A stretch of 50,378 bases of DNA, taken from the NCBI GenBank assembly GCA_018817915.1, contig JAHISX010000087.1, positions 1-50,378 on the forward strand. Direction: 5' to 3'. The notes under the pieces were generated by a model. The model saw nothing but the letters and a program-made list of their open reading frames with translations, searched no databases and was not told where the DNA came from. The stretch comes from Bacillota bacterium. Lineage in GTDB: Bacteria; Bacillota_I; Bacilli_A; Acholeplasmatales; Acholeplasmataceae. The position numbers and the translations under genes are program-made. Positions 17,702 through 21,336 of this stretch are shown here, one piece after another (the first letter of the stretch is position 1; each line of letters begins with the position of its first letter).

Positions 17702-18556
17702 ATGTTTTCAATAGAAATATTACCTGGATTTGTACTTGGGATAAGAGAGGGTTTAGAAGCTTTTTTAATCATCGCAATTATGCTTGAGTACTTAAACAAA
17801 TCTCAACGGCAACAAGATAAAAAATACGTTATTCAAGGATTATTACTTGGTTTTTCCATATCTTTGATCCTAGGCTTTTTTCTATTTTTTGTTTCAGATA
17901 TCATTCAATCAAGCAGTTCTAACATATCCAAACTTTGGGAATTTTTCGCATCTTTTGGTGCATTGATTCTAATCACAACTTTTATCATCTTCACTTTGAA
18001 AAGTAAACAAAGTATGACTTCTGAAATTCGAGAGAAGATGAGCCTTAAATTATCTAAAAAAGCAATTGTATTGCTTGCGACCATCATGGTAGCAAGAGAA
18101 GGTGTTGAAGTCGTATTATTTATCATCGCTTCAGTGAATCAAACCTATTATTCAATCGGTGCAATCTTAGGTGTGCTTTTTTCAGGTGTTCTTGCGTTTT
18201 TGATTTATAAATCATTAGTTAAAATTAATCTTAAATTGATCTTCAACATAACAATTATCTATTTAATATTACAAGCTGGATTCATGTTAGGTTATAGCTT
18301 TCATGAATTATTTTCATATTTTAAAACTGAACAAATCATGCCTTCTTCACATTGGATTTATACTCAACTTTTTGATTTATCAAATACATTTTTAGATAGT
18401 AAAACTCAACCCATTGGTATAGCACTATATGCATTAATTGGTTGGTATAGTAAACCGGAAATATTTCAATTTATTATGCAATATTTATATTCAGGCGTAT
18501 TTTTAATATGGTTTTTAAATCTTAATACAAAGGATAATACTACTGAAGTTATATAA
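17702..18556 (+). CDS. FTR1-family iron permease
   Basis: This 284-aa membrane protein has about seven spans and two copies of the family's REGxE iron-passage motif: REGLE at residues 15-19 and REGVE at 132-136. FTR1/EfeU proteins carry ferric or ferrous iron across the cell membrane. EfeO- and EfeB-like partners are not encoded nearby, so this looks like a stand-alone member. A likely promoter is TTTGCA-18-TATACT about 25 bp upstream of GGGAGTGG. I saw no convincing Fur box. Confidence 0.88.
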   Translation: MFSIEILPGFVLGIREGLEAFLIIAIMLEYLNKSQRQQDKKYVIQGLLLGFSISLILGFFLFFVSDIIQSSSSNISKLWEFFASFGALILITTFIIFTLKSKQSMTSEIREKMSLKLSKKAIVLLATIMVAREGVEVVLFIIASVNQTYYSIGAILGVLFSGVLAFLIYKSLVKINLKLIFNITIIYLILQAGFMLGYSFHELFSYFKTEQIMPSSHWIYTQLFDLSNTFLDSKTQPIGIALYALIGWYSKPEIFQFIMQYLYSGVFLIWFLNLNTKDNTTEVI

Positions 18557-19250: not shown

Positions 19251-19279
19251 TTTACATAAACCAAAATTGATTGTATAAT
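19251..19279 (+). promoter_or_regulatory. promoter of the repeat-SBP lipoprotein
   Basis: TTTACA (19251-19256) and TATAAT (19274-19279) are exactly 17 bp apart, 37 bp before the ATG at 19317. Confidence 0.75.
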
Positions 19280-19316
19280 ATACTTAATATAATTAATGCG
19301 AATGGGAGGATTATTT

Positions 19317-20813
19317 ATGCGAACTAAAAGATTATTTATAGGAATGTTTTTATTGCTTATATTAGGATTATTTTTATCATCTTGTGTTGATGCAATTGAA
19401 CTGACAGTTCAATTTGATTCTAATGGAGGATCAACAGTTTCTTCAGTTGTATTAGATGGATCATCACAAGTTTCTATACCTGATAATCCAACAAAAGAAG
19501 GATATACATTTGTTGGATGGTACCAAGAAATAGATCTTATCAATATATATGATTTTGAAACAATACCAACAGTAGATATTACACTTTATGCTAAGTGGAA
19601 TATTAATCAATATACAATACACTTTGATAGTAATGATGGTACTGAAGTCCTTGATATTACTCAAAATTATTTAACTATTGTTACAGCTCCAGATGATCCA
19701 ATTAAAGATGGTTATATATTTGATGGATGGTATATTGATGAAGAACTAATTGTTGAGTATACTTTCACAATCGTACTTACTGAAAATATTAATCTATATG
19801 CAAAATGGATAGAAGACGATGGCATGATCCATTTACCCAATTTAACGATCTATTTTAGTCCTTCTAGAGACAATGAATCCTTACTTCAAAGCATGAACTA
19901 TTTGCCAGATCTTTTAAAAATCGAAATGGCTACTTTGGGTTATTATATTGAAGTTATTACTGTAAATCTCGGGGTAACATATGAAGCAGTTGGCGAAGCA
20001 CTAGCAACTGGAACAGCCGATGTTGGGTTTATTACAGGTAATACTTATGCTAGTTTTTCTAATGGTGTGAACATGGATGCTGCATTAACTGCAACGAGAA
20101 CCGGACTTTCTAAAGATTCCACAAATCCTATGGACTGGAATGATGGAGAACCAACAGTATCAGATATAACTTGTCAATTACCATATTATCGATCAATTGG
20201 AATCGTTGGACAAACAGCTAAAGGCCGTGAACTCGCTGACATAATTAATAGTGGTGGAACAATTACATGGGAAGATTTACAAGATGCTAAGATTGGTGTT
20301 CAATCAGTTACATCGAATGCTGGTCGTGTTTATCCATCATTATTATTCAATGATTTATATGGTCACACTCTTGAAGATTTACCCGCTGCAAACATTATCA
20401 TAGTCTCTGGATATGGAGCAGCTGCTTCAGCTTTAGCATCCGGTTCTGTTGATATCGCATTTGGTTATGCAGATTTTAGAAGAGATTATGCTGATGAATG
20501 GATTTCTAGTATAGAAGGCGGATACAACCAAGAAAATACAATTTGGGAAGATACGGACGTTATTTTCGTTACAGATGGTGTTTACAATGACACAATTACT
20601 GTTTCAAAAGTAACTGTAGATGATGCTCTTCAAGCAGCTATTGAACAAGCATTTGTTAATCTAATTCAAGATACGACACCACTTTCTAATCCTTCTGGTA
20701 TATTTCAAATGGTCAAAGATATCTTCAAAGTATATAGTTATGAAGGTTTTGCAATTGCTGATGATTCAGATTATGATGTCACACGGGCAGCACTTGAGCT
20801 ATTAAATGGATAA
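19317..20813 (+). CDS. lipoprotein: two InlB-type B-repeats fused to a PhnD-like substrate-binding domain
   Basis: This 498-aa exported lipoprotein has a lipobox LSSC with the mature Cys at residue 23. Two Listeria-Bacteroides (InlB B/Flg_new) repeats follow at about residues 28-90 and 93-160. Each has the FDSNxG opening, GYxFxGWY core and LYAKW end. From about residue 165 it reads as a phosphate/phosphonate periplasmic-binding (PhnD-type) domain: LTIYFSPSRDNE, ALATGTADVGFITG, VTSNAG, ALASGSVDIAFGY. I use ATG at 19317 because GGGAGG precedes it by 7 bp; an upstream in-frame ATG lacks a site. No permease or ATPase gene adjoins it, so its transporter, if any, lies elsewhere. Confidence 0.85.
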   Translation: MRTKRLFIGMFLLLILGLFLSSCVDAIELTVQFDSNGGSTVSSVVLDGSSQVSIPDNPTKEGYTFVGWYQEIDLINIYDFETIPTVDITLYAKWNINQYTIHFDSNDGTEVLDITQNYLTIVTAPDDPIKDGYIFDGWYIDEELIVEYTFTIVLTENINLYAKWIEDDGMIHLPNLTIYFSPSRDNESLLQSMNYLPDLLKIEMATLGYYIEVITVNLGVTYEAVGEALATGTADVGFITGNTYASFSNGVNMDAALTATRTGLSKDSTNPMDWNDGEPTVSDITCQLPYYRSIGIVGQTAKGRELADIINSGGTITWEDLQDAKIGVQSVTSNAGRVYPSLLFNDLYGHTLEDLPAANIIIVSGYGAAASALASGSVDIAFGYADFRRDYADEWISSIEGGYNQENTIWEDTDVIFVTDGVYNDTITVSKVTVDDALQAAIEQAFVNLIQDTTPLSNPSGIFQMVKDIFKVYSYEGFAIADDSDYDVTRAALELLNG

Positions 20814-20925: not shown

Positions 20926-20973
20926 AAAATAGCCTTGATCTATAACTTATTAGTATAGATAAGGCTTTTTTAC
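20926..20973. terminator. terminator of ssrA (also usable from the left)
   Basis: AGCCTTGATCTATA (20931-20944) pairs with TATAGATAAGGCT (20954-20966) with one bulge or mismatch. A-run on the left and T-run on the right flank it. Read on the minus strand it follows the tmRNA 3' end by about 30 bp; read on the plus strand it ends the lipoprotein transcript. Confidence 0.8.
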
Positions 20974-20996: not shown

Positions 20997-21336
20997 TGGT
21001 GGAGATGAGGGGGATCGAACCCCTGTGCAAAACACTTTATAGAGTACTTTCTACATGTTTATTTCATTTATAATTTCATGCAGTATCCTAAACGAACAAA
21101 AGGCTACAACACTATCCTAAAGGGTTCTTTTATTATCTTAGGAACGATAATAAATATAACTTACTAAAATTGGGCCGCATCAGAACCGTAAGTAAATTCA
21201 GATTTGGCTCGCACCTGTTCTTAGGCAGCGAAACTTAAAGATTGGTTTCCGGTTATTATAACCTCTGCTTTTTTACATGAGCGACCATGACATGCTTATA
21301 CGCTACTCCATGCCGTGACGAATCCAGAACATCCCC
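20997..21336 (-). ncRNA. ssrA: tmRNA
   Basis: The 340-nt minus-strand RNA begins GGGGATGTTCTGGATTCG and ends in a tRNA-like half with T-arm AGGGGTTCGATCCCCCT and acceptor CATCTCCACCA. CCA is encoded at 20997-20999. The 5' GGGGATG pairs with CATCTCC. The tag frame lies at 21221-21250: after ATAACC it reads Gly-Asn-Gln-Ser-Leu-Ser-Phe-Ala-Ala and TAA. The tag added to stalled proteins is thus Ala-GNQSLSFAA, short but with the usual FAA end. It rescues stalled ribosomes together with SmpB, whose gene is not in this window. Confidence 0.95.

Follow-up and report, generated by a model that had tools for sequence, protein, structure and literature searches.

The 50,378 nucleotides analysed here (the window), which make up the entire contig C43 of a 2.13-Mb draft genome, carry a gene for a lipoprotein in which two InlB B-repeats stand in front of a phosphonate-type binding domain, and judged by sequence relationships this gene is a duplicated, dispersed and stalk-fused copy of a PhnD of the phnDCEE type. 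The host is an apparently uncultured member of the Acholeplasmataceae, a family of wall-less Mollicutes, and is probably wall-less itself. The features of the gene and its surroundings are as follows.

19251 to 19279, plus strand: promoter-like site TTTACA-17-TATAAT, 11 of 12 consensus bases, 37 nt upstream of the start codon
19304 to 19309, plus strand: ribosome-binding-like sequence GGGAGG preceding ATG 19317, read from the sequence
19317 to 20813, plus strand: stalked PhnD-type binding lipoprotein of 498 amino acids (open reading frame and Pfam matches)
19317 to 19385, plus strand: signal peptide and lipobox LSSC (residues 20-23) with predicted acylated Cys23, motif read from the sequence
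19404 to 19595, plus strand: InlB B-repeat 1, residues 30-93 (PF09479, 68.4 bits)
19611 to 19805, plus strand: InlB B-repeat 2, residues 99-163 (PF09479, 65 bits)
19827 to 20810, plus strand: type II binding domain, residues 171-498 (PF12974, pLDDT, PtxB fold match, identity to the PhnD of contig C5)
19857 to 19859, plus strand: V181S, at the place of PtxB pocket residue Leu20/Ile20 as mapped by sequence alignment; Val in 44 of the 44 relatives with a letter there
20034 to 20042, plus strand: P240T and G242N, both in the conserved loop 'IPGGTY', where all 45 relatives have Pro and 44 of them Gly
20739 to 20750, plus strand: H475Y and Y478F, two changes in the C-terminal motif 'YSHEGY', where all 45 relatives keep His and Tyr; the stalked PhnD of genome G155 also differs at both
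20931 to 20966, plus strand: hairpin followed by a T-run, -16.1 kcal/mol for the stretch, z -4.3

Over the whole protein the PF09479 match reaches 123 bits (E 5.2e-36, cut-off 27), and PF12974 (Phosphonate-bd) spans residues 180-486 with 79 bits (E 4.5e-22, curated cut-off 27). The scores of the NCBIfam models TIGR01098 (phosphate/phosphite/phosphonate binding protein, 62.2 bits) and TIGR03431 (PhnD equivalog, 12 bits) are under the respective cut-offs of 112.05 and 261.1. A signal peptide with a lipobox cysteine, as is typical of bacterial lipoproteins, can be read from the sequence. These matches bear out the sequence-only reading, which had described a PhnD-type binding lipoprotein with two InlB B-repeats. 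ATG 19317 is preferred as start codon to ATG 19296 because of the GGGAGG at 19304-19309. Of the promoter and terminator of its own that had also been claimed for the gene, the first has its counterpart in the promoter-like site, found in a scan by consensus match only that gave 24 sites with 18.6 expected (sd 3.9). As to the second, the terminator scan reported no terminator at the hairpin of 20931-20966, and this hairpin, which is located between the stalked gene and a convergent tmRNA gene, could be used by either of them.

The stalked gene is placed between a gene for an FTR1-type permease and the group tmRNA-HAD-ABC. The FTR1/EfeU-type iron permease gene extends from 17702 to 18556 and scores below the EfeU and TIGR00145 cut-offs; the tmRNA gene is found at 20997-21336 on the minus strand, convergent with the stalked gene. 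No phnE-like sequence was detected in the window at E 1e-3, and the five ATPase stretches matched there by the PhnC of contig C5 all belong to other genes (23-36% identity), so that the absence of a permease or ATPase of its kind beside the gene, noted before, is confirmed. Encoding together with its own permease and ATPase, the mark of an importer subunit, is thus found for the paralogue on contig C5 and not for the window gene. HAD and ABC genes are found together in another 14 genomes of the genus, where HAD is 55-79% identical. The stretch preceding HAD, of which up to 1.5 kb was read, gave no match to the stalked gene in any of these 14 and contains tmRNA in six. In G009, the genome with the closest HAD, the order is FTR1, an AraC-family gene, tmRNA and HAD, with the AraC-family gene occupying the place between the FTR1 gene and tmRNA. 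The FTR1 and HAD proteins of this locus are 86% and 79% identical to those of the window, and no PF12974 match was found in the G009 genome (85% complete).

The host genome contains two PF12974 matches, the window gene and a gene on contig C5, where a plain PhnD of 353 amino acids is followed by PhnC and two PhnE genes (phnD-phnC-phnE-phnE operon). The window domain shares 77% identity with this PhnD over 324 ungapped residues (80% in DNA). A search for phnC and phnE gave none at the locus itself and a phnDCEE operon elsewhere in the same genome. Among the named relatives, which are the best 80 of 215 found and whose binding domains are 41-70% identical to that of the window, in all 80 phnC lies downstream on the same strand, no more than 297 bases away, phnE is also present in 79 (the contig of the remaining one ends there), and InlB B-repeats occur in none. 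A family search over 88 genomes gave 33 matches above the cut-off, in 31 of the genomes; their open frames measure 263-401 amino acids, the 506 of the window being the sole exception. Since the domain family is normally encoded as phnDCEE, the window gene is taken to be its dispersed, stalk-fused paralogue. Four relatives in the genus (G010, G015, G016 and G018; 81-92% complete) have the operonic PhnD and no stalked copy, and the stalked PhnD is known from one species of the genus only. Among the host repeat proteins compared, the window stalk is closest (47% over residues 4-167) to the lipoprotein C5:14683, which shows a weak, sub-threshold metallopeptidase match and shares its contig with the phnDCEE operon. 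It is possible that the stalked gene is a fusion of parts from the C5 region.

In the host genome the module of lipobox and repeats is also found in front of RCC1-type repeats, a putative metallopeptidase, an S41 peptidase, a BspA-type LRR and an endonuclease I, the lipoboxes of these other proteins being read by eye. Because one module precedes so many unrelated domains, it is plausible that the window repeats act as a stalk, and this stalk would be a general presentation module of the host genome, not particular to the window protein. Three further families of binding proteins are stalked in the host, namely BMP/PnrA on contig C5 and SBP_bac_8 and Peripla_BP_6 in tandem on contig C51; no ABC genes were seen by eye beside the BMP/PnrA gene or the C51 pair in the stretches read. 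Each of the three has a plain relative next to permease genes: for BMP (45%, contig C76) these are two of the PF02653 type together with one ABC ATPase gene, for Peripla_BP_6 (38%, contig C3) again two of the PF02653 type together with two ABC ATPase genes, and for SBP_bac_8 (51%, contig C59) a PF00528 permease gene. The stalked BMP/PnrA protein is of the nucleoside type (L039:1496-3103, G000:C5). The N-terminal stretches of the C51 tandem pair (L044:127-4085) are 60% identical over 100 residues; the pair reads as a case of recent module shuffling.

Similar stalked SBP_bac_8 proteins, stalk included, occur in G003, G009 and G016 (46-53%), with the same malic-enzyme neighbour in G016 as in the host, and one additional stalked binding protein each was found in G016 and G015. 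G016:C56 (L154:658-3381) encodes a stalked SBP_bac_8 protein of 908 amino acids that over 534 residues has 71% identity with the plain protein from C59 of the host (G000); here a stalk has apparently been gained or lost between close relatives. At least nine stalked binding proteins, spread over 5 of the 20 genomes, are present in the genus, a lower bound that is based on the matches listed and leaves out the long frames of G001 and G012. Repeats are present in 4 of 14 long SBP_bac_8 frames fetched and in one of two Peripla_BP_6 frames, and no binding domain was present at four loci that had been retrieved solely for their repeats (G015:C185, G018:C34, G011:C29 and G017:C9).

Among the matches listed for 395 genomes of the class, one further protein combines the repeats with a PhnD domain. 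It is found in G155, a member of a different family, and comprises 549 amino acids with three repeats and PF12974; none of the neighbours of its gene gave a PhnC or PhnE match. Its binding domain shares 56% identity with the plain PhnD of its own phnDCEE operon and 38.5% with the window domain. While five of ten inner branches were open in a first tree of PhnD domains, a second tree places the two stalked domains on opposite sides of 100/100 forks, with the plain PhnD from the respective genome as neighbour, at 93/88 for G155, whose row is long-branched, and at 89/77, not a strong fork, for the window and C5 sisters. From this placement the stalked PhnD very probably arose at least twice independently.

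SBP_bac_8 with a repeat was confirmed in G040, G214, G223 and G344, that is at four of nine loci fetched. In G040, an order-level relative of the host, the gene of the repeat-bearing protein shares a strand with those of two PF00528 permeases and an ABC ATPase, at intervals of about 10-30 bases (G040:C50, L218:2838-8979). To judge from this complete importer operon the stalk goes with an importer there, hence import is compatible with a stalk, and no other result speaks as strongly against regarding the stalk as a sign of a role away from import. Given this operon and the one on C5, the stalk and the lack of neighbours carry little weight as arguments against import, and the earlier suggestion of a 'scout or sensor rather than importer subunit' finds no confirmation in a genome with a 77% identical PhnD in a phnDCEE operon.

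In AlphaFold models the binding domain has pLDDT values mostly above 90, and its best fold match is apo PtxB (5o2k_E) with Z 22.9 over 255 residues at 2.5 A, in agreement with the expectation that the C-terminal part folds as a binding protein. The repeat region has pLDDT values mostly below 50, both in the full model and when modelled alone, which makes these models unusable for the length or stiffness of the stalk. PtxB, HtxB and E. coli PhnD match the fold with Z 17-23 at 13-18% identity, and the structures of AioX and ArrX are also among the matches; transferrin lobes were set aside as sharing the common fold only. At sequence level a first profile (A1) found nothing among solved structures at E 0.01, whereas a deeper profile (A2) found PtxB and HtxB. 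The window domain has in common with PtxB, HtxB and E. coli PhnD the type II binding-protein fold and two ligand-site places: Tyr222 and Asp425 are kept, and align with PtxB Tyr55 and with HtxB Asp206/E. coli PhnD Asp205, as numbered in the available text of PMC5700983. Unlike the window protein these three have no stalk, and the window domain has Asp where phosphite binders have the Tyr cap from lobe 1. A phosphite binder of the PtxB type was rejected for this reason, as Asp425 aligns in sequence with PtxB Tyr208; an Asp at the cap place would speak for a bulkier ligand, as far as structures of such low identity (13-18%) can tell. The PF09479 repeats are shared with the internalins, surface proteins with InlB B-repeats, and match the solved B-repeat 2y5p weakly (1.3e-5). 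In contrast to internalins, the window repeats are located between a lipobox and a solute-binding domain, and no leucine-rich or anchor domain is among the Pfam matches of the window protein.

The binding proteins of phnDCEE operons from Acholeplasmataceae, Paenibacillus, Lachnospiraceae and others share the PF12974 domain, but are plain and encoded with phnC and phnE, whereas the window protein is stalked, dispersed and altered at positions that 45 of them keep invariant. Of 89 conserved positions, defined on 45 relatives with each relative left out in turn for its own count, 11 are changed in the stalked copy and between 0 and 9 in the relatives. Plain copies outside the 45 show 2 changes (C5, the sister), 5 (G155), 8 (G179) and 12 (G305, adjoining phnC). 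The count is thus high for the clade and not peculiar to stalked proteins, and the count alone marks no new specificity. V181, P240, G242, H475 and Y478 are intact in all four of these outside copies. According to the available text of PMC5700983, Leu20/Ile20 is located in the PtxB pocket beside the cap, and the STS motif of PtxB, with which the stretch containing a further change, S334N, aligns, binds the anion. The 'IPGGTY' loop aligns with 'GPLSY' of PtxB, which is not named as a ligand contact in the same text. All changed residues were placed by sequence alignment to PtxB and HtxB, not on coordinates. The altered family-conserved positions, among them one that maps to the pocket wall, speak in favour of a changed role of the window protein.

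Four operonic PhnDs agree at 212 positions, of which the stalked copy keeps 177 and loses 35, with 28 losses among the 87 positions in residues 175-289 versus 7 among 125 elsewhere (P 4e-7). Segment 290-447 is near-identical to the C5 copy, with third-position differences in 38 of 158 codons versus 48 of 115 in the first 115 (P 0.002). This uneven divergence along the gene suggests a partial gene conversion with the C5 copy, a suggestion and no more because longer-than-expected identical runs also exist between C5 and G010 (P 0.045) and G015 (P 0.022). With G010, G015 and G018 as outgroups, dN/dS was estimated as 0.30 (95% 0.20-0.45) on the stalked branch and 0.14 (0.06-0.33) on the operonic branch; the intervals overlap, and in all 300 bootstraps the stalked branch has the greater dN. 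The estimates indicate that the stalked copy is under purifying selection.

The likeliest explanation, to which we give a probability just short of even, is that of an accessory binding protein which shares the PhnCEE importer, probably with altered specificity. It is preferred because permease-sharing paralogues are documented and the domain stays constrained. The lipid would anchor the protein to the membrane, the repeats would hold the binding domain off the surface, and the domain would catch a related, probably non-identical phosphorus-type ligand and hand it to the PhnCEE permease encoded elsewhere, following the principle of 'one permease, several binding proteins'. Such arrangements are described in the available parts of PMC4206461 for DppA1-A5 with DppBCDF and of PMC8938411 for CaiX/BetX with Cbc, where several binding proteins serve one ABC importer; some of these paralogous binding proteins are encoded away from the permease, as is the window gene. 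These parts mention no stalk for DppA1-A5 or CaiX/BetX, and for the window protein the sharing of PhnCEE would follow by analogy. In its sequence this reading is supported by the PhnD paralogy, the constraint, the changed invariant positions including the pocket wall, and the retention of Tyr222 and Asp425. Two further points in its favour are the plain relatives beside permease genes that the three other stalked binding proteins of the host have, and the importer operon of G040. It has against it that the stalked copy is without genetic link to phnCEE and that four genus relatives are without the stalked copy; the 12 changes of the plain G305 protein make it slightly less likely. The changed invariant positions could equally mean that docking or binding has been lost.

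A stand-alone receptor or sensor, which signals or holds its ligand at the surface without a permease in the manner of AioX, is the main rival of the accessory role and is considered doubtful. It would fit the absence of transporter genes of its kind at the locus, and also the fact that both independent stalked PhnDs are altered, at 11 and 26 of the 89 positions, with six places in common (231, 242, 255, 447, 475 and 478). However, this overlap is not significant at the 5% level (hypergeometric P 0.057), three of the six places (231, 447 and the like) vary in plain copies too, and the plain G305 copy reaches 12 changes by itself. The genome has 14 HATPase_c matches, 13 of them over the cut-off, and some may be kinases; the domain is also a part of gyrase and MutL. 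No HATPase_c match was found on contig C43, whereas aioX adjoins aioSR, the genes for kinase and regulator, according to the available text of PMC7533571. There AioX is described as the sensor for arsenite that acts with the kinase AioS in a three-component system, and the appearance of AioX and ArrX among the fold matches, which differ from the window protein in the absence of a stalk, lends the receptor some credit. The repeat-bearing binding protein inside the G040 importer operon speaks against it.

Less probable still is a helper role, in which the ligand is that of the operonic PhnD and the stalk only lets the protein reach further through slime or a surface layer. High identity, above all in the near-identical residues 290-447, the presence of the identical stalk type on many unrelated domains and the variation of plain PhnDs elsewhere at conserved places agree with it, and the G305 count raises its probability slightly; V181S at a pocket position and S334N in the STS-aligned stretch make an identical specificity less likely. 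There is a slim chance that the gene is a relaxed duplicate without present function and heading for loss, in line with its greater amino-acid change compared to the operonic copy and its occurrence in one species of the genus. Its 498-codon frame is intact, however, it has a promoter-like site and a branch dN/dS well below 1, an independent stalked PhnD exists in another family, and similar stalked SBP_bac_8 proteins are present in four species. An assembly chimera of a repeat protein and a PhnD gene, conceivable in a draft of 89 contigs with 2.39% contamination, is most improbable because both flanks are shared with G009, the reading frame runs through without a break, and at the DNA level the domain is 20% different from the C5 copy.

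Every part of the window protein is already known; as to the combination, no description of substrate-binding proteins stalked by InlB repeats was found in searches of open-licence papers, although one may already exist. The common picture of an importer's binding protein is that of a free molecule or one held near the permease by a short linker. Here a repeat stalk is placed under four families of binding proteins in one genome, and under PhnD independently in two lineages. We tentatively propose, as a rather unlikely generalization, that InlB-stalked, dispersed copies of importer binding proteins form a recurrent class of surface receptors in the class of the host, duplicated from an operon, stalked and altered in the pocket in several families. 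If true, a reaching tier of receptors for sensing or scavenging would exist beside the membrane-hugging importer subunits. The pairs of plain and stalked proteins offer a direct test of the effect of the stalk on ligand capture and delivery, and the 77% identical pair a test of specificity change after duplication. A variant of the stalk is seen in G344:C6 (L211:1023-3062), where an SBP_bac_8 protein carries a collagen-like stretch together with an InlB repeat before its binding domain.
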